Shown: positions 9,802-19,399 of the stretch, piece by piece
Position numbering within the stretch: the stretch's first letter is position 1
How the letters are laid out: each line of letters begins with the position of its first letter
NCBI GenBank assembly: GCA_026985075.1
Contig: JALSQX010000066.1
Location: 1-64,000, forward strand
Direction of reading: 5' to 3'
Source: Blastocatellia bacterium
GTDB lineage: Bacteria > Acidobacteriota > Blastocatellia > HR10 > J050
Length of the DNA: 64,000 nucleotides
Position numbers and translations under genes: made by a program
The notes under the pieces: model-generated
Told to the model about the DNA's origin: nothing
Seen by the model: only the letters and a program-made list of their open reading frames with translations
Database searches by the model: none

Positions 9802-10542
9802 ATGCGTTCGGCCATCGGCGATAAGCTCACTTGTGCGGCATCGTCCCTCGTTCATCGAGCTGCGCCGGGCGAGCGGCGGCCCATCGCCCTATGGCTTCCC
9901 GTCTCCGGCGTGAGGGCCTCATCAGAGTCGCCTCCGGAGACGCCGAAGGCCCGTCCTCGCTTTGACCAGTCGGCTGGGCCGCTGAGGCGTCTCGATGACG
10001 CCCGGTTGATCGAGCGGTGTCTGCAAGGAGATCGAGAGGCGTGGGCCGCGTTGGTCGATCGCTACAGTGGCCTGGTGTATTCTATCGCCTGGAAGTCCCG
10101 GCTGTCTCCCGAGGATGTCGCCGATGTGTATCAGTCGGTCATGCTCGCGCTTCTGGAGAGTTTGTCCGAGTTGAGGGATTGGACGAAGCTCAGTTCCTGG
10201 CTGACGGCAGTGACTATTCACGAGTGTATGCGCGTCAAGCGGCGGCATCGCCAGTGGCCCATTCGGCTGGACGATGTGGAGGGTGAACTGGCCGATAAGG
10301 TTGATGAATCGCCCCTCCCCGACGATGTGGTGCAGACCCTGGAGAAGCAGCAGTTGATCCATCGGGCCCTCTCCATGATGGATGAACCATGCCGTCGCCT
10401 GTTGACGCGGCTGTTTTTTGAGGAAGAGTGGTCCTACCAGCGCCTCGCCGAGGAGATGGGACTGTCGGTGTCAACCATCGGGCCGAAGCGGAATCGCTGT
10501 CTGAGAAAGCTCCTCAATGTGCTCGCCAAGCTGGGGTGGTGA
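9802..10542 (+). CDS. ECF-type RNA polymerase sigma factor
   Basis: A 246-aa sigma-70-family protein of the extracytoplasmic-function type. After about 55 unconserved residues, region 2 runs from LIERCLQGDREAWAALVDRY through the -10 recognition stretch (DVADVYQSVMLALLESL) to WLTAVTIHECMRVKRR. Region 4 follows a short linker, with an HTH around SYQRLAEEMGLSVSTI. No region 1.1 or 3 is present. The start at ATG 9802 has AGGAG seven bases upstream; longer frames back to 9703 are open but unlike the family. It heads a same-strand run with a zinc-finger protein, a TPR-CHAT protease and a subtilase, so the downstream proteins probably control its activity. Confidence 0.88.
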   Translation: MRSAIGDKLTCAASSLVHRAAPGERRPIALWLPVSGVRASSESPPETPKARPRFDQSAGPLRRLDDARLIERCLQGDREAWAALVDRYSGLVYSIAWKSRLSPEDVADVYQSVMLALLESLSELRDWTKLSSWLTAVTIHECMRVKRRHRQWPIRLDDVEGELADKVDESPLPDDVVQTLEKQQLIHRALSMMDEPCRRLLTRLFFEEEWSYQRLAEEMGLSVSTIGPKRNRCLRKLLNVLAKLGW

Positions 10543-10708
10543 GACGGAATGACAATGAGCGGGTCACCGTGAGACGTCGAGCGTGAACGCCGGGCGACCG
10601 TTCGAGCGATGATGGGACGGACGCCATCGGCGAGTCGCTCGTATGCTCGTTCGAGCGAGACCACCGTTCAGGCTCGGGAATGAACGACTGACGAGGGATG
10701 GGGATCAC

Positions 10709-11335
10709 ATGAGATGTCCTCCAGTCGAACAACTTCTCGCCTTTTCTCGCGGCCTCCTGCCCGATCGAGAGAGGCGCCGCCTCCAGATTCATCTGGATGT
10801 GGAATGTCGGTCCTGTCCGACGCGACTTCGGCAGATCGAAGACGTGCGTCGATGTGCTGACCAATGGGATCTCCGGAGCCCTCCCGAGTGGCTTCGGCAA
10901 CAGGCGCTCGCTCTGTTCGACTGGGGGGAAGCAGAATCGCGTCCCGGTGGGATGAAGCACGTCCTGGGGCTCCTGGTCTTCGATAGCCTGGCTCAATGTG
11001 CTCTGCCAGGCTATCGCCCCGCCCGGCAGACATCTCGGCACATGCTTTATCGCGCTGGTGAGGTTGATATCGACCTCTGCGTGGCGCCCGGTCAATCTCC
11101 CGGATCGGTTCGTCTCACTGGTCAGACCAATCCCATTGATGGCACGCTAGCCAGGGTGGCTGGCGCGCGAATTGATCTCACCAAGCATCATCGCGTGGTG
11201 GCGGTGGCCACGGCCAATCCCTTCGGTTGGTTTCGCCTCGATGAGATCCCGGAGGGCATCTACGAGTTGCGGATCACTCTGTCCGATGAGGCCGTGGATA
11301 TCATCAACCTCGATCTCACGTTGTCCGAGTATTGA
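10709..11335 (+). CDS. Putative anti-sigma factor: zinc-finger N-terminus plus beta-sandwich
   Basis: A 208-aa soluble protein that I infer holds the preceding sigma factor inactive. Residues 1-40 resemble a zf-HC2/anti-sigma zinc finger: a helical start, then HLDVECRSC. The spacing is H-x4-C-x2-C rather than the usual H-x3-C-x2-C, and Cys3 could add a ligand. A linker of about 60 residues follows, then from about residue 105 a beta-rich segment with NPFGWFRLDEIPEGIYELRI, typical of carboxypeptidase-regulatory-like sandwiches. No transmembrane segment is seen, so it would act in the cytoplasm. ATG 10709 follows a GGGG tract. It ends one base before the protease start. The function rests on position and the weak finger match. 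Confidence 0.6.
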   Translation: MRCPPVEQLLAFSRGLLPDRERRRLQIHLDVECRSCPTRLRQIEDVRRCADQWDLRSPPEWLRQQALALFDWGEAESRPGGMKHVLGLLVFDSLAQCALPGYRPARQTSRHMLYRAGEVDIDLCVAPGQSPGSVRLTGQTNPIDGTLARVAGARIDLTKHHRVVAVATANPFGWFRLDEIPEGIYELRITLSDEAVDIINLDLTLSEY

Positions 11336-11336
11336 C

Positions 11337-14240
11337 ATGATGCAGACGATCAGTCCATCAGCATCAATCGCTTGCGCCCCGACGGCTCCCCGAGAGTGGA
11401 ATGAAGAACGGCTGGTCGAGGAGTTGACGCAGCGCTGCCTGGGGAGCGAGTGCAGCGCTTTGTTGATGTCGTGTCGAGGACTGCTCACGGTGAACCTCAT
11501 TCGATTGCTCAAAGAGAAGGTGGCTTATCTCATTCGCGTCGATATTCATCGGGCGGCGAAGCTGGCTGAGATGACGCAAGCCGCAGCGGCCTTAGTCAGT
11601 GATCCCCGAGCGGAAGCGTTGGCCGAGCACGCTCTGGCGCTGGCCTTGCATTTCTCCGGGCGGTATCGCGATGCCCTCACCGCCTACGAGCGCGCAGAGA
11701 CGATATATCGCCGTCTCAATGAAGATATCCAGGCGGCGCGCATTGCCCGAGCGAAGCTCGGCGTCCTCATGTATCTGGGCGATGAGCGGCGCGCTCTGGA
11801 GGAAGCCGCGCGGGCCGCCGCCGTGTTCCAGCAGCATGGTGAACTCGTCCTGCTCGGGCAAACCTGGGAGAACATCGGCAGCCTCTATCATCGTCTGGAT
11901 CGCTATCGCGAGGCTCTGGACTACTACGACCGCGCTCGAGAGATCTATCGCGCCCACCACTTCGAATTCGGCCTCGCCTCGGTCAGCTTCAATGCCGCCA
12001 TTCAATATACTCATCTGAACGACTTCCAGCGGGCGCTTCGCCTTTATCGAGAAGCTCGGCGGATATATCAAAAGCTGGATATGCCTTTGCTGGTCAACGA
12101 AACGGATTACACCGTGGCCTGGCTATACGCTCAATGTGGTCGGTTTCAAGAGAGCCTCGAACTATTCGCCAAGGTCAGCGCGCGCGCGCGCCAGTTGGGC
12201 GACCGCACTCAAGAAGCCTGGTGCGCATTGGATGTGACCGAGGTGTACTTACAGTTGAATGCCTACGAAGATGCCATCGAATCGGCGCAGCTCGCCGCCG
12301 AGGCCTTCGAAGCTCTCCATATGCCCCATGAGATGGCCAAGGCGAGAATGTATCTGGGAATCGCTCATGCCCATGCCGGTGAGTGGAGTGTGGCCCAACG
12401 GGAGCTGGAGCGGGCTCGTCGGCGCTTTCTCGCCGAAGGGAATGCCGTTCTGGTGGCGCTGACCAATGTCTATTTGAGCGACGTGTTCATTCATCGCCGG
12501 GACTGGACTCGGGTCGAGCCGTTGTGCCGGGAAGCCCAACGCCTCTTTGCCCGCCGGGGTCTGGCGACGAAAGCGGCCTGGGCCACGGTGCAACTGGCTC
12601 GATCCAAGCTCTTGTCCGGTGATCCGGTCACCGCCGGGGAACTCTGCCGCGGGGCGCTGAAGAGACTGAAGAACCTGGATGTCCCCTGGCTCCAATACCA
12701 CTGTTGGAGTTTGCTGGGTGAGGCGCTGGAGCGCATGGGGAAGCGCCGCCGGGCCTACCAGAGCTATCTTCGAGCGATCACCTACCTGGAAGAGTTGCAA
12801 CATCATATCCGAGTGGATGAATTCAAGCGCCTGTTTTTGAGGGACAAAGTGGTCGTCTATCAGGATCTGGTGCGACTGTGCCTCGGCGAAGAAACAGCGG
12901 AGAAAGCGGAAGAGGCCTTCCGCTACGTAGAGTCGGCCAAGTCCCGCGCGCTCGTCGATCAATTGATTGCGGTCGAGCGCGATGCCCGACAAGCTGACGC
13001 GCCGGGGCAGCGAGAGTGGGTGAGACTTCGAGAAGAGCTGAACTGGATCTATAGCCGCATCCATGATCACGAGACCCGAGCGGGAGACCGATCCCGTTCG
13101 CTCCTGAAACGGTTACGGGCCGCGGCCCGTCGGCGGGAACGAGAGTTGGCGAAGGTGTCCCGTCACTTCTCCGTTCGCGCGAACCGCTCGCTCCCGCTGG
13201 CTCCCATCCCCGGACCCACAGTGAGCGACGTGCGCCGATGTCTGGCCGAGGACGAAGTGTTGATCGAATACTTTCTCGTCGATGATCGGGTGATGGTGTT
13301 CCTCCTGGACGACGAGCGGATGCACGTTCTCCAGGATCTCGGATCGGCAGCAGCCATTTCGTCCCTCCTGCAACAGTTCACATTTTGTATCGACAAGTTT
13401 GCTCTCGGTCGGAGATTCGTCGTCGCCCACTGGGAGAATATCACCAGATTCACCAATTGGTGTCTCGGAGAGCTCTACGCGGCCTTGATCGAACCTCTCG
13501 CCCATCTCATTGAGGGGAAAAAGATCGTCCTGGTTCCTCATGGCGTGCTGCATTACGTTCCTTTCCACGCGTTGCATGATGGTCAACGGTATCTCATCGA
13601 GAGACATGAGCTCTCCTACGCGCCGAGCGCTCGTATCTACACTTTATGTCTGGAGGACGCCGGAGAACTGAAAGCCGATGGTCCGACCGTGATCATCGGC
13701 GTGCCCGATGAATCGACGCCGTTCATCCAGGAGGAAGTGGCCGCCGTCCGGTCCATGTGGCCCGAGGCCCAAGTGTTCATCGGTGAAGCGGCGCAGTTTG
13801 AGCACGTGAAAACGCCTCTGGGCGGGGCCCGGATAGTGCACATTGCCTCTCACGCCATATTTCGCCGCGATCATCCGATGTTTTCGGCATTGACGTTCGC
13901 CGATGGTCCGGTGAGCGTCTATGATATTGCTCATCTTCGTCTGAAAGCCGGGTTGGTGACTCTCAGCGCGTGCGAGTCGGGATTGAACGAGGTCGCGCCC
14001 GGAGACGAATTACTCGGCCTCATGCGCGGATTTCTCTCGGCGGGAGCCGCTTCGCTGGTGATGAGCCTATGGGTCGTCAATGATCGATCGACGGCGGAGT
14101 TGATGAAACATTTTTATCGCGGATTGCGCCGGGGACTTGACAAGCGGGCGGCGTTGCGACGCGCCCAACTTGAAATCAAACGGCGATACCCCCATCCCTA
14201 TTATTGGGCGCCGTTCATTTTGACGGGGGCTCCAGTATGA
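11337..14240 (+). CDS. TPR-CHAT caspase-like protease
   Basis: A 967-aa protein. Residues about 80-560 are TPR repeats (for example QTWENIGSLYHRLDRYREAL), followed by a charged helical linker and a CHAT (caspase HetF-associated with TPRs) domain from about 620 to the end. The catalytic dyad is intact: His839 in HIASHA and Cys879 in LSACESG, with the conserved GLMRGFLSAGAASLVMSLW after it. CHAT enzymes are clan-CD cysteine proteases; TPRs usually sense or recruit partners. No signal peptide, so cytosolic. The ATG at 11337 comes one base after the previous stop, so translation is probably coupled; the frame upstream of it only shadows that gene. The natural target to test is the adjacent putative anti-sigma factor. 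Confidence 0.9.
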   Translation: MMQTISPSASIACAPTAPREWNEERLVEELTQRCLGSECSALLMSCRGLLTVNLIRLLKEKVAYLIRVDIHRAAKLAEMTQAAAALVSDPRAEALAEHALALALHFSGRYRDALTAYERAETIYRRLNEDIQAARIARAKLGVLMYLGDERRALEEAARAAAVFQQHGELVLLGQTWENIGSLYHRLDRYREALDYYDRAREIYRAHHFEFGLASVSFNAAIQYTHLNDFQRALRLYREARRIYQKLDMPLLVNETDYTVAWLYAQCGRFQESLELFAKVSARARQLGDRTQEAWCALDVTEVYLQLNAYEDAIESAQLAAEAFEALHMPHEMAKARMYLGIAHAHAGEWSVAQRELERARRRFLAEGNAVLVALTNVYLSDVFIHRRDWTRVEPLCREAQRLFARRGLATKAAWATVQLARSKLLSGDPVTAGELCRGALKRLKNLDVPWLQYHCWSLLGEALERMGKRRRAYQSYLRAITYLEELQHHIRVDEFKRLFLRDKVVVYQDLVRLCLGEETAEKAEEAFRYVESAKSRALVDQLIAVERDARQADAPGQREWVRLREELNWIYSRIHDHETRAGDRSRSLLKRLRAAARRRERELAKVSRHFSVRANRSLPLAPIPGPTVSDVRRCLAEDEVLIEYFLVDDRVMVFLLDDERMHVLQDLGSAAAISSLLQQFTFCIDKFALGRRFVVAHWENITRFTNWCLGELYAALIEPLAHLIEGKKIVLVPHGVLHYVPFHALHDGQRYLIERHELSYAPSARIYTLCLEDAGELKADGPTVIIGVPDESTPFIQEEVAAVRSMWPEAQVFIGEAAQFEHVKTPLGGARIVHIASHAIFRRDHPMFSALTFADGPVSVYDIAHLRLKAGLVTLSACESGLNEVAPGDELLGLMRGFLSAGAASLVMSLWVVNDRSTAELMKHFYRGLRRGLDKRAALRRAQLEIKRRYPHPYYWAPFILTGAPV

Positions 14241-14318
14241 GGCGGAGTCGCGTCGACCGTCCGGTTGAGCGAGGGAAGAGATCCTTCATTCGTCCCTCGC
14301 CCGAGGAGGATTGAACCG

Positions 14319-15533
14319 ATGACTGCATCAACGAGACGAACGAGCACGTTCTGGATGCGCTTGATCATTCTGGCGCTCATCGCTGGTCTCACCCCGTTCC
14401 CTTGGGCAGAGCGTTCGACGAACCTCAATGGTCCTGTTCTTGCTCAGGGCGCCGAGGACTACGAGCGAGGGATGGTCATCGTCCAACTGGCTCCCATGGG
14501 TGATCCGGCCCGGATTGCCCAACGACACGGCCTGGAGGTCATCGAAGCTATCGACGAGCATTTCTGGCTGATGGGCATTCCCGATGACCGGACGGTGCCC
14601 GAGGTTATCCGGCAGTTGACGCGAGATCGCGAGGTGCGATCGGCCGAGCCCAATCGCTTTTTCGAGCTTCCGGAAGTGAACCCTCGGACGATCATTCATG
14701 TCGATGGAGATGGAGCAGGGGGACATTTCAGGGAACAAGCAGCGCTGGACATCATGAGGGTGACGGAAGCTCAACTCATCGCCGACGGGAGCGGCATCGT
14801 CGTGGCCGTCATCGATACTGGCGTTGATGCCACGCACCCGGAGCTCGCCAACGTCGGTGAGGGATATGACTTCGTGGACGATGACGACGATCCATCGGAA
14901 GTCGGAGGCGGCGAGGGCTTCGGACATGGAACCATGGTCGCCGGATTGATCACTCTCATTGCTCCCGGCGTCACCATCATGCCCATCAGGGCCTTTGGCC
15001 CCGATGGGAGAGGCACGACAGTCGACATCGCCCGAGCCATCCGTTTCGCCGCCCATCATGGGGCCGACATCGTCAATCTCAGTTTTGGCACCGTCGATCA
15101 ACCGCAGGCCATTCGAGGAGCGATCAACTACGCCCGGAGCCGAGCCATCCTGGTCGCTTCGGCGGGCAATGAAGATGCCGATGTCGCTCAGTACCCGGCC
15201 TCCGACAATCAGGTCGTCGCCGTCGCTTCAACTGATCTCGAGGATCATAAAGCGCTCTTCTCCAACTACGGGTTCCACATCAATGTGAGCGCTCCTGGGG
15301 TTCATATCGTCAGTGCCTATCCCGGCGGCGGGTATGCGACCGGAGATGGAACATCCTTTTCGACGGCTTTCATATCGGGAGCAATTGCCTTGATCATGTC
15401 GGCGGGCAGTCGAGATCCGGTCAAGGCCATAGAGAATGCCGCCGTCGATATCGACGATCTCAATCCGGATTATCGTGGGCTTCTCGGTCGAGGGCGATTA
15501 GATGTCTACGCAGCCGTGTCCGGGGAGGAGTAG
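14319..15533 (+). CDS. Secreted S8 (subtilisin-like) serine protease
   Basis: A 404-aa subtilase. It begins with a signal peptide (MRLIILALIAGLTPFPWA), then an inhibitor-like prodomain of about 80 residues that ends near AEPNRFF, then the S8 catalytic domain. The triad is complete: Asp166 in VIDTGVD, His203 in GHGTMVAG and Ser346 in GTSFSTAF. The acidic run VDDDDDPSE after the Asp is a likely calcium-binding loop. ATG 14319 follows GAGGAGGA by eight bases and lies 78 bases after the CHAT stop, so it is probably in the same transcript. If exported, it acts in the periplasm or outside, not on the cytosolic sigma factor. It may instead be an output of the module. Confidence 0.88.
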   Translation: MTASTRRTSTFWMRLIILALIAGLTPFPWAERSTNLNGPVLAQGAEDYERGMVIVQLAPMGDPARIAQRHGLEVIEAIDEHFWLMGIPDDRTVPEVIRQLTRDREVRSAEPNRFFELPEVNPRTIIHVDGDGAGGHFREQAALDIMRVTEAQLIADGSGIVVAVIDTGVDATHPELANVGEGYDFVDDDDDPSEVGGGEGFGHGTMVAGLITLIAPGVTIMPIRAFGPDGRGTTVDIARAIRFAAHHGADIVNLSFGTVDQPQAIRGAINYARSRAILVASAGNEDADVAQYPASDNQVVAVASTDLEDHKALFSNYGFHINVSAPGVHIVSAYPGGGYATGDGTSFSTAFISGAIALIMSAGSRDPVKAIENAAVDIDDLNPDYRGLLGRGRLDVYAAVSGEE

Positions 15534-15576: not shown

Positions 15577-16911
15577 TCAGGGGTTGAGGATGAAAAGCTT
15601 GGCTTCCTCGGTGATATTATTGACGCCGCCGAAGACGAGACTGACCGGCGCGCGCTCGGTCAACCTGACCAGGAGAGTCCCCGTCATCCAGTAATCGCCC
15701 AACTCCCAGTGTTTCACGATGGACCCATCCAGCGTCACCGCCGTCACGCCTCCCTGAGTGCCGAGGAGGAGTTCCGGGCGATCATCACCGTTCAAATCCA
15801 GAAGGGTGAGGGCATCGATGGCACTCGGCTCAACGGCTAGCGTCCAACGGAGGAGCCCCCGTTGATCCCAGGCAGTGAGCACGCCATCCAGCGCGAAGGC
15901 GACTACGAGCGTGCGCTCTCCATCGGAAACGACTATGGGAGAGGTGAACACCGGTCCTCCGACCGACTGTGGCCATCCGGGCGCGGGAGCGCCATCCTGG
16001 GCGCTGACGATGTAGACCGAAGGCGTGTAGGTGCCGCCAACGATCTCGATCGCTCCATCGTGATTCACATCGGCGAACACCGGTCGAGCGATCGGATGGG
16101 CGCCGATACGGCGCTGCCACTGGAGTCGCCACCCGCCCTGCTCGAAGGCGAACAGGTAGAGCGAGCCCTCCGGTCTCGTGAATCCGTTCCCTGCGCCTAC
16201 GGCCAACAGGATTCGGTGGCCATGGTGGTACATGGCGGGCGATGAAGCGAAGAATTCCTCCAACTCAATTGGAGATCCCGGATAGGGCGTTCCATTCCAT
16301 CGCCAGAGATAGATCTTGGCCCGTCCCAGGAACTCATCGGCGGGTGCGATGATCTCCATGCGACCATCTCCGTCGAGATCACAGGCCAGGGGTTTGGCCT
16401 GGAAAACGCCATCCACCTGGTGTTGCCACCGGAGTTGTCCGTCGCCGCGAAACACGTAGAGAATCGATCCATGCCCGAAGATCACTTCGGCGCGGGCATC
16501 GCCATCCAGATCGGCGACGGTGGGCGCCGTCGGCGGGAGAGATCCGACCTGACTTTCGGTCACCACTGGCCAATGACCGGAGACGGCTCGATCGACATCG
16601 ATCACCGTAACAATCCCGGTCATGGCGACCTCAAGTCCGGATCGCCCGGCTCCAATGGCTGTGGCTATAACCTCTGGCGTTCCATCCCCATCCAGGTCGC
16701 CCACAGCAGGCCTGTTAATGAAAAAGTGTCCGACAGGAAATTCCAGGACCGAGGCCGGATCAGCGAGGCTGGCGCGACCTCCGCTCATCATGAGCGTGAA
16801 CACCAGGAAGATCCACCAGGCCCTGGCCAAGGACGCCGCTTCTCTTCGGCGTGAAGGGAGATGTCTGGTCCCTCCCATCCACCAACCTGCCCGCCTCCTC
16901 ATTGTTTTCAT
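15577..16911 (-). CDS. Secreted FG-GAP/VCBS beta-propeller protein
   Basis: A 444-aa exported protein with an atypically long basic N-terminus, a hydrophobic segment (ARAWWIFLVFTLMMSGG) and then at least five FG-GAP-like calcium-binding repeats: GDLDGDGTPEV, ADLDGDARAEV, CDLDGDGRMEI, ADVNHDGAIEI and LDLNGDDRPEL. These repeats build seven-bladed propellers like the integrin alpha head, usually for protein or sugar binding at the surface. The ATG at 16911 has AGGAGG five bases upstream. It converges on the subtilase gene with 43 bases between the stops. No enzymatic motif is visible; the function is unknown. Confidence 0.82.
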   Translation of the reverse strand: MKTMRRRAGWWMGGTRHLPSRRREAASLARAWWIFLVFTLMMSGGRASLADPASVLEFPVGHFFINRPAVGDLDGDGTPEVIATAIGAGRSGLEVAMTGIVTVIDVDRAVSGHWPVVTESQVGSLPPTAPTVADLDGDARAEVIFGHGSILYVFRGDGQLRWQHQVDGVFQAKPLACDLDGDGRMEIIAPADEFLGRAKIYLWRWNGTPYPGSPIELEEFFASSPAMYHHGHRILLAVGAGNGFTRPEGSLYLFAFEQGGWRLQWQRRIGAHPIARPVFADVNHDGAIEIVGGTYTPSVYIVSAQDGAPAPGWPQSVGGPVFTSPIVVSDGERTLVVAFALDGVLTAWDQRGLLRWTLAVEPSAIDALTLLDLNGDDRPELLLGTQGGVTAVTLDGSIVKHWELGDYWMTGTLLVRLTERAPVSLVFGGVNNITEEAKLFILNP

Positions 16912-17974: not shown

Positions 17975-19399
17975 TTACAGCCCGTACTGTTTCTTCTTAT
18001 CGTGCACGTGCACCTTGGTGATGCCCAGGATCTTCCCCGCCTTGGTCAGATTGCCTTCTGACTGCCGAAGAGCATTCTTCAACAGGAACGTTTCCAAGGC
18101 CTCCTTAGCAGCGTACCAGTTGGGCAGGAAGTGCCCGTCGATGATGAGCTTATTATCGGCGGTGATCTTCAGTCGTTCACCCTTGGCCCGTTGGCGAATG
18201 CGCTCCAGTTCCTGCTGCAATTGGACGTCGTGGTAGGATTCCAGAGCCTCTCTGACCTGGGTGAGGCGCTGTTGCGCCTTGACGGGCGCCGTAGGGAGTT
18301 CGCACTCGGCTAGATAGAGCTGGGCTGCCGTCTGGAGCATCTTGCTGTTGAGTCTCTGGCTGATCTCCAGGGCTTCCTTCAGCACTTTGGCCGCCGCATA
18401 GAAGTCGTTCCGCTTGATCTCGATGCGCCCCAGGGTAATGAGGGCTTCGGCCTTGACGAACTCGTTGTGCGAGAGGTCGGCTTGCTGAATGGCCTGAGAA
18501 GCATATTTCTCCGCCTTATGGAGCGCTCCGCTCTGGAGATAGAGTTCGGCAAACGTCTCCAGGTGAATGGAACTGCCGGCGATATTCCCCACCCGCTGAT
18601 AGAGCTCGCCACTCTCCTGCAGAATGGCTTCGGCGGCCTCATATTGCTCTAACCGGACCAGCGTCAGGGCCAGGTTATTCATGGCGTTGGCCAGTTGCTC
18701 GAACGAGGCGAACTGCTCGAAAATGCTGACCGCCTCCTTGATCATCGAGAAGGCCTCTTCATATTTCCCCATCCGCCGAAGGAGCGTCCCGAAGCTATTC
18801 AAGGCAGCTCCATAGTAGATGCCTCGTTCGAGTTTGTTGAGAACGACCATTGCCGAGGAGTAGAGCTCGGTAGCCGCATCGAGCTGGCCGAGTTGATGGG
18901 CACACACGCCAAGGTTGAACTCGAGCAAGGCCTGGAGAAACTCTTTCTTCTCGCCTCGGTGATCGCTCATCAGGTTCAGGGCGTGATGGAGCAGTTGTTG
19001 AGCTGCCTCGAACTTCGCTTCGCGACGCTTCAGTCGCCCCAGATTGTAGAGCGTCTTGGCCAATCCGAACTCATCATCGATGAACCGGTACATCTGCTCG
19101 GCCATGCGAAAGTGCTGTTCGGCGGGCTCATACTCGAACCGCCAGTAGTACCATTCGCCTCGAGCCAACGCATAGCGAGCGGCTTCATCGATGGCCAGAT
19201 CCCGCGGTTGGATTCGCTCCAATAGCTCGCCCGCCTCGTCCAGGCGACCGAAGTAGGTGTGGACTTCCGCTTGGTAGATGAGCCCCAAGGAGCCCTCGGG
19301 CGGATCAGTCTTGATGAGCTTCTCGGCTCGTTGAAATCGACCGGAGTCGATCAGGTCTGAGAGTGTGAAGAATGTTTCAAGTCGTCGTGCGCCTTCCAT
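17975..19399 (-). CDS. TPR regulator with C-terminal Fis-type HTH
   Basis: A 474-aa soluble protein. Almost the whole length to about residue 390 is helical TPR repeats (for example GLAKTLYNLGRLKRREAKFEAAQQLL and AGSSIHLETFAELYLQSGALHKAEKY, given in part). The last 45 residues, ending in EGNLTKAGKILGITKVHVHDKKKQYGL in part, match the Fis-family helix-turn-helix found at the end of NtrC-type activators, but there is no AAA+ domain. It is therefore probably a DNA-binding regulator whose TPR superhelix senses a protein or peptide. ATG 19399 has GGAGGAGG upstream; the promoter is some 260 bases away, leaving a long leader. The small secreted peptide gene follows on the same strand. Confidence 0.8.
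   Translation of the reverse strand: MEGARRLETFFTLSDLIDSGRFQRAEKLIKTDPPEGSLGLIYQAEVHTYFGRLDEAGELLERIQPRDLAIDEAARYALARGEWYYWRFEYEPAEQHFRMAEQMYRFIDDEFGLAKTLYNLGRLKRREAKFEAAQQLLHHALNLMSDHRGEKKEFLQALLEFNLGVCAHQLGQLDAATELYSSAMVVLNKLERGIYYGAALNSFGTLLRRMGKYEEAFSMIKEAVSIFEQFASFEQLANAMNNLALTLVRLEQYEAAEAILQESGELYQRVGNIAGSSIHLETFAELYLQSGALHKAEKYASQAIQQADLSHNEFVKAEALITLGRIEIKRNDFYAAAKVLKEALEISQRLNSKMLQTAAQLYLAECELPTAPVKAQQRLTQVREALESYHDVQLQQELERIRQRAKGERLKITADNKLIIDGHFLPNWYAAKEALETFLLKNALRQSEGNLTKAGKILGITKVHVHDKKKQYGL

Follow-up and report, generated by a model that had tools for sequence, protein, structure and literature searches.

Why an extracytoplasmic function (ECF) sigma factor should be encoded in one run with a small 208-aa protein, a tetratricopeptide repeat (TPR) protease of the CHAT family and an S8 protease (subtilase) is the question raised by positions 9802-15533 of a 64,000-nucleotide stretch of Blastocatellia bacterium DNA (GenBank assembly GCA_026985075.1, contig JALSQX010000066.1, positions 1 to 64,000, hereafter the window). 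The four open reading frames (ORFs) lie on the forward strand, and the 208-aa protein gene and the TPR-CHAT gene are separated by one base. This arrangement had been described in an initial annotation made from the sequence alone, and it was recovered when the ORFs were re-checked. Families were assigned by Pfam and NCBIfam, and the two agreed. As detailed below, the four genes almost certainly form one functional module, and on balance a cytoplasmic, protease-controlled sigma switch is the explanation of the whole that we favour.

For the analysis of conservation, loci were chosen by a CHAT search and by a profile of the 208-aa protein; the sigma factor and the subtilase never served as selection criteria. 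Neighbouring genes were labelled with profile hidden Markov models (HMMs). The CHAT search of 58 relatives gave strong homologues in 23 genomes. With the 208-aa profile, 396 genomes of the phylum were searched, of which 34 had strong matches (E ~1e-20 or better). The window's genome itself holds two further close CHAT genes (contigs C105 and C16), both adjoining a homologue of the 208-aa protein. Among 53 acidobacterial loci with a close CHAT homologue, all four genes were present in 38, an ECF sigma factor in 46 and a subtilase in 43. Some near-complete genomes that have the set belong to family f16. The commonest order was sigma, anti-sigma, CHAT, S8; sigma-CHAT-anti-sigma-S8, CHAT-S8-sigma-anti-sigma and CHAT-anti-sigma-S8-sigma were also found. 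The search for the same genes in other Acidobacteriota, which the initial annotation had named as a check, thus returned a conserved set with an order that varies in some families. That the set is kept while its order is shuffled is strong evidence for joint function.

Pairwise distances of the four proteins co-varied (r 0.61-0.80), a level reached by 0 of 500 permutations, and paralogous cassettes within one genome diverged in step. The permutation control leaves in shared species history, for part of which the within-genome paralogues correct. In a sister species (metagenome-assembled genome (MAG) J050, locus L044), the genes for CHAT and S8 are also present, and the CHAT proteins are 82% identical. 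Ratios of nonsynonymous to synonymous substitution rates (dN/dS) of 0.16 for the CHAT protein (P0003) and 0.18 for the S8 protease (P0004) indicate purifying selection. One or two of the four genes are missing from some loci, as might be seen if they were neighbours by chance; this explanation is refuted by the phylum-wide conservation, the rearranged orders and the co-divergence, and its probability is negligible.

Additional genes were seen at some cassettes. In family f4 (L065, L067, L068, L069, L070, L081), sigma and anti-sigma are separated by a gene encoding a secreted protein with DUF5666-like repeats, and just upstream there is often another, different sigma gene. At L045 (contig C105 of the window's genome, 2688-9295) and L048, two anti-sigma homologues flank the CHAT gene and a gene for a GAF-PAS-histidine-kinase-receiver protein; neither locus has an adjoining sigma gene. 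We regard the DUF5666-like genes, and likewise the L045/L049 hybrid kinase, as local additions.

The 208-aa protein had been called a putative anti-sigma factor, a designation that was upheld at the level of homology. In a search against all PDB chains, positions 1-76 of the family profile matched RsiW (E 5.2e-7) and, more weakly, DdvA (1.1e-4) and ChrR (0.03), and the C-terminal part matched beta-sandwich domains. With Pfam applied to single members, zf-HC2 was detected in 11 and CarboxypepD_reg in 20 of 23 family members. The zinc ligands are Cys3, His28, Cys33 and Cys36, the last three being invariant among 38 aligned members. Downstream of the ligands, the alignment shows a P-x-W helix, followed by the conserved stretch LxxDS...RS...RQLLY...DIDL and then a carboxypeptidase-regulatory-type beta-sandwich. 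An N-terminal zinc anti-sigma domain is thus shared with the RsiW-SigW and ChrR-sigmaE systems and with DdvA. RsiW is anchored in the membrane and set free through membrane proteases, and ChrR is a cytoplasmic zinc anti-sigma factor with a further domain. Unlike RsiW, the 208-aa protein ends in a soluble beta-sandwich, and the protease that may act on it is cytoplasmic; neither the proteins of the 208-aa family nor the CHAT proteins carry an export signal. Judged by these sequence matches, the 208-aa protein is very probably a soluble, zinc-type (ZAS) anti-sigma homologue, and most likely it is the anti-sigma factor of the neighbouring sigma factor.

In the AlphaFold2 (AF2) model of this protein (P0002; mean predicted local distance difference test score (pLDDT) 89), helices are formed by residues 6-13, 19-32, 35-52 and 60-73 and the beta-sandwich by residues 83-205. 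Residues 51-80 have a pLDDT of 61-73, with 61 for residues 71-80. A flexible linker had been placed at about residues 45-105. This extent proved too wide: since residues 60-73 are modelled as helix 4 and residues 83-205 as a well-predicted beta-sandwich, the flexible parts are predicted at about residues 53-59 and 73-82. A Foldseek search with the whole model returned beta-sandwich proteins and no anti-sigma factor, which is uninformative because the small anti-sigma domain was not searched alone.

For a model of the sigma factor together with its putative inhibitor, locus L072 was used, in which sigma and anti-sigma genes share one frame. The read-through product was modelled by AF2 with stops read as Ser and a linker of ~24 residues, from an alignment with 11 paired rows and 49 unpaired ones. 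The model reached a predicted template modelling score (pTM) of 0.70. Helix 4 of the anti-sigma domain had a pLDDT of ~90, as compared to 61-73 when modelled without sigma, and the weak point inside the anti-sigma factor was at residues 301-310 (pLDDT 55), the joint before the beta-sandwich. When the sigma part was submitted to Foldseek, ranks 1-8 were all anti-sigma-bound sigma factors, AlgU-MucA, SigW-RsiW and sigmaE-RseA among them. Over both sigma domains, the root mean square deviation (rmsd) was 12-13 Å to anti-sigma-bound and 22-30 Å to RNA polymerase-bound sigma factors. The model is consistent with a sigma/anti-sigma complex, a weak indication and not proof.

The third gene encodes a TPR array and a CHAT domain with a His/Cys dyad, and no signal peptide was seen in its product. 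The dyad, reported as intact in the initial annotation, was found at His839 and Cys879 and is universal among the CHAT homologues that span it (54/54). As compared to MAG J050, the TPR middle evolves fastest (dN 0.14 versus 0.08-0.09 elsewhere). On the reading favoured here, the 208-aa protein would hold the ECF sigma factor inactive via its N-terminal four-helix zinc domain, as homology suggests, and the TPR region of the CHAT protein would receive an intracellular (cytoplasmic) signal. The activated CHAT protease would then cut the anti-sigma factor, most likely in the joint between helix 4 and the beta-sandwich, the latter possibly serving it as docking site. With the anti-sigma fragment lost, the sigma factor would be freed and drive its regulon, with the co-encoded exported subtilase as a probable member and output.

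The cleavage step is modelled on two CRISPR systems. In type III-E, the TPR-CHAT protease Csx29 cleaves Csx30, the inhibitor of CASP-sigma (PMC10028731). Common to type III-E CASP and the cassette are the TPR-CHAT His/Cys dyad, the ECF sigma factor and a soluble sigma inhibitor, here a putative one, that is built of two flexibly joined domains; in contrast, no Cas7-11, CRISPR RNA (crRNA) or CRISPR array was seen here. That the cassette stands without CRISPR had been noted before, and no CRISPR-like array or repeats were seen in positions 1-30000 of the window. With the Csx29 model, for which the cut-off is 300, the CHAT protein scored 56 bits, which places it outside the Csx29 family, and it aligns to Csx29 structures in the CHAT domain only. 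The putative inhibitor is here a zf-HC2 protein with no known relation to Csx30. In the second system, the type III CRISPR Lon-SAVED protease CalpL cleaves the soluble anti-sigma factor CalpT and frees the ECF sigma factor CalpS (PMC11417357). The combination of intracellular protease, soluble anti-sigma factor and ECF sigma factor is the same, whereas CalpL belongs to another protease family and is triggered by cyclic oligoadenylate; no SAVED domain is found here. By these analogies, the chances that the CHAT protease acts on the 208-aa protein by proteolysis are about even.

Combinations of similar domains were also encountered elsewhere. In the window's genome (G000), distantly related CHAT genes on contigs C102, C103, C42, C83 and C1 (L082, L083, L084, L085, L087) adjoin ECF sigma and zf-HC2 genes, in the order sigma - zf - CHAT on C102 and C83, and some of these zf-HC2 proteins carry TPR. 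Sigma factor, zf-HC2 protein and CHAT protein are thus a wider theme within this genome. PDB entries 8rot and 8rw5 ("CHAT domain-containing protein") have a zf-HC2-like N-terminal stretch (E 0.003 to residues 2-48), so that a zf-HC2-type domain and CHAT are combined in one chain, as opposed to separate genes here. The solved 991-aa CHAT protein 8rot_B could be a natural fusion of anti-sigma-like and CHAT functions; no publication on 8rot/8rw5 was found in the literature searched. An apparent anti-sigma-CHAT fusion in L128 (G367) was rejected, as its open frame crosses a scaffold stretch of N, and long frames in L138 and L137 were rejected as antisense or overlapping-frame artefacts.

Whether this layout had been described before was left uncertain in the initial annotation. 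The gene list has been, briefly, as the genomic context of the ECF54 group; its explanation by an anti-sigma factor has not. According to a 2022 review (PMC8999054), ECF54 sigma factor genes lie near genes for a "carboxypeptidase", a subtilase and a CHAT protein, and these sigma factors were proposed to be controlled by proteolysis, with no anti-sigma factor involved; the sources summarised there are Huang 2015 and Casas-Pastor 2021, and the type is SFT86700.1 of Geodermatophilus. The same neighbours (CHAT, subtilase, carboxypeptidase-regulatory protein) surround the ECF sigma factor here, a likeness of gene context. In contrast to the stated lack of an anti-sigma factor in ECF54, the carboxypeptidase-regulatory-type protein bears an RsiW-like anti-sigma domain.

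By analogy to the ECF54 proposal (PMC8999054, section 3.3), CHAT might destroy the sigma factor itself and keep it inactive in this way, with the 208-aa protein as adaptor or sensor. Loss of the zinc finger in some members fits this alternative, as does a cassette of Nonomuraea (NZ_LT559118, ~7.905-7.910 Mb) that unites S8, TPR-CHAT and sigma genes with one for a distant homologue of the 208-aa protein: this homologue matches profile positions 85-196 only (the C-terminal two thirds), and no zinc finger was found in it. Most family members, however, keep the full domain homologous to RsiW and ChrR, which makes a separate inhibition of sigma likely and direct destruction of sigma by CHAT improbable. 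The stated lack of an anti-sigma factor in ECF54 could stem from members in which the finger has been lost. ECF54 and acidobacterial cassettes are probably branches of one module. The Nonomuraea TPR-CHAT gene is in divergent orientation and split between two frames in the record. On a plasmid of Miltoncostaea oceani (L144, NZ_CP064357.1, 8010-9430), an ECF sigma gene close to the family is directly followed by an S8 gene without obvious signal peptide, beside a GAF protein; no CHAT gene was present in the stretch read. Two regions with plasmid-borne Streptomyces CHAT genes were read and had no sigma, zinc finger or S8 neighbours.

The subtilase combines a catalytic triad (Asp166/His203/Ser346), a prodomain and an export signal. 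Its description as a secreted S8 protease with intact triad held throughout the family, with Asp, His and Ser kept in 48/48 homologues and an N-terminal hydrophobic export segment in 47/48, the sole exception being a mis-framed entry. Because the subtilase is exported and CHAT and anti-sigma factor lack a signal, intracellular cleavage of the anti-sigma factor by the subtilase is unlikely, and CHAT is in the right compartment. The subtilase could instead act upstream, if the exported protease made an extracellular or periplasmic signal (such as a peptide) that reached the TPRs and activated CHAT. Its export with a prodomain, its presence in 43/53 loci and the tightest co-divergence of all with CHAT (r 0.80) would suit such a role. 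The cassette has no conserved gene for an importer or a signal peptide, though, and the actinobacterial S8 proteases found here have no obvious signal peptide and look cytoplasmic, in contrast to the exported acidobacterial ones. An upstream subtilase is accordingly rated as unlikely, and the enzyme is probably an output.

CHAT and subtilase could also both be sigma-controlled effectors, e.g. in suicide or defence, with the anti-sigma factor regulated by other means (loss of zinc or redox change as in RsrA/ChrR, or a ligand of the beta-sandwich). The zinc ligands are conserved, in most loci the CHAT and S8 genes follow further down the operon, with both active sites kept, and the matched ChrR is likewise a cytoplasmic zinc anti-sigma factor with a further domain. 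Against this, CHAT stays near sigma and anti-sigma in every gene order, including loci without S8, and the zinc site is lost in some members. This is a minority possibility, rather doubtful if less so than the two alternatives above.

Several points weigh against the proposed switch. Cleavage of the anti-sigma factor by CHAT is an inference from analogy. No conserved cleavage motif was found in the joint; this is no argument against cleavage, because Craspases cut non-conserved sites (PMC11106740). Sigma/anti-sigma pairing is not absolute, since one genus (g11 of family f5) lost the zinc finger and some loci (L045, L048) have anti-sigma and CHAT without an adjoining sigma gene. The L072 model contains a non-natural linker and no readable interface, and an rmsd of 12 Å to known complexes is no match. 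Finally, motif searches upstream of the sigma and subtilase genes found no shared promoter motif and none that would point to autoregulation, so that the regulon link from sigma to subtilase is unsupported. The pattern GGAAC-N14-19-GTC occurred at chance frequency, and TGGGAA, apparently enriched 5' of sigma genes, was rejected because it falls within the codons for Ala-Trp-Glu in sigma region 2. At L076, L077, L079 and L080, the anti-sigma homologue lacks the entire zinc finger and the other cassette genes are kept.

Coordinates of all features are listed in Table 1. An AGGAG motif is located 8 nt upstream of the sigma ATG at 9802, and the N-terminal ~60 aa of the sigma factor reach beyond most homologues. 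The cassette is adjoined on the reverse strand by genes for a TPR protein with C-terminal Fis-type helix-turn-helix (17975-19399) and an FG-GAP repeat protein (15577-16911); both are also found beside the cassette in MAG J050 (L044).

Table 1. Features of the cassette in window coordinates.
Feature	Position	Strand	Evidence
ECF-type sigma factor, 246 aa (sigma2 + sigma4)	9802..10542	+	Sigma70_r2 1.6e-10; sigma70-ECF 4e-25; PDB sigma-E/SigW/SigH matches
Putative soluble zinc anti-sigma factor (zf-HC2-type domain + CarboxypepD_reg-like beta-sandwich), 208 aa	10709..11335	+	RsiW/DdvA/ChrR profile matches; AF2
Predicted anti-sigma domain, residues 1-76	10709..10936	+	Family alignment; PDB profile matches; AF2 model
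Flexible joint after helix 4, residues ~73-82, candidate cleavage region	10925..10954	+	Low pLDDT; cleavage inferred
Beta-sandwich (carboxypeptidase regulatory-like), residues 83-205	10955..11323	+	Pfam; AF2 model
TPR-CHAT caspase-like cysteine protease, 967 aa	11337..14240	+	Pfam CHAT 2.9e-70; TPR_12 2.5e-23
Catalytic His839	13851..13853	+	Invariant in 54/54 spanning homologues
Catalytic Cys879	13971..13973	+	Invariant in 54/54 spanning homologues
Exported S8 subtilase, 404 aa, N-terminal prodomain	14319..15533	+	Peptidase_S8 1.1e-42; Fervidolysin_NPro 2.9e-8

CHAT proteases are common in bacteria, but to our knowledge few of their substrates have been established beyond the CRISPR and gasdermin systems. 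The gene list itself is already known as ECF54 context; new here are the anti-sigma domain in the "carboxypeptidase" partner, the finding that the set is conserved across the phylum in varying order, and the active sites kept throughout. With these, the reading of ECF54, described without an anti-sigma factor, is revised, and the cassette names a concrete candidate CHAT substrate in dozens of genomes, namely a soluble anti-sigma factor whose joint is defined. Tentatively, and with somewhat more doubt than confidence, it may represent a widespread CRISPR-independent pathway, in which a TPR-CHAT protease senses a cue, cuts a zinc anti-sigma factor and frees an ECF sigma factor with a subtilase as output, and which is possibly the source type for the logic of type III-E CASP. 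If true, control of sigma factors by a caspase-like protease would be a general principle of bacterial signalling and not a speciality of CRISPR systems.

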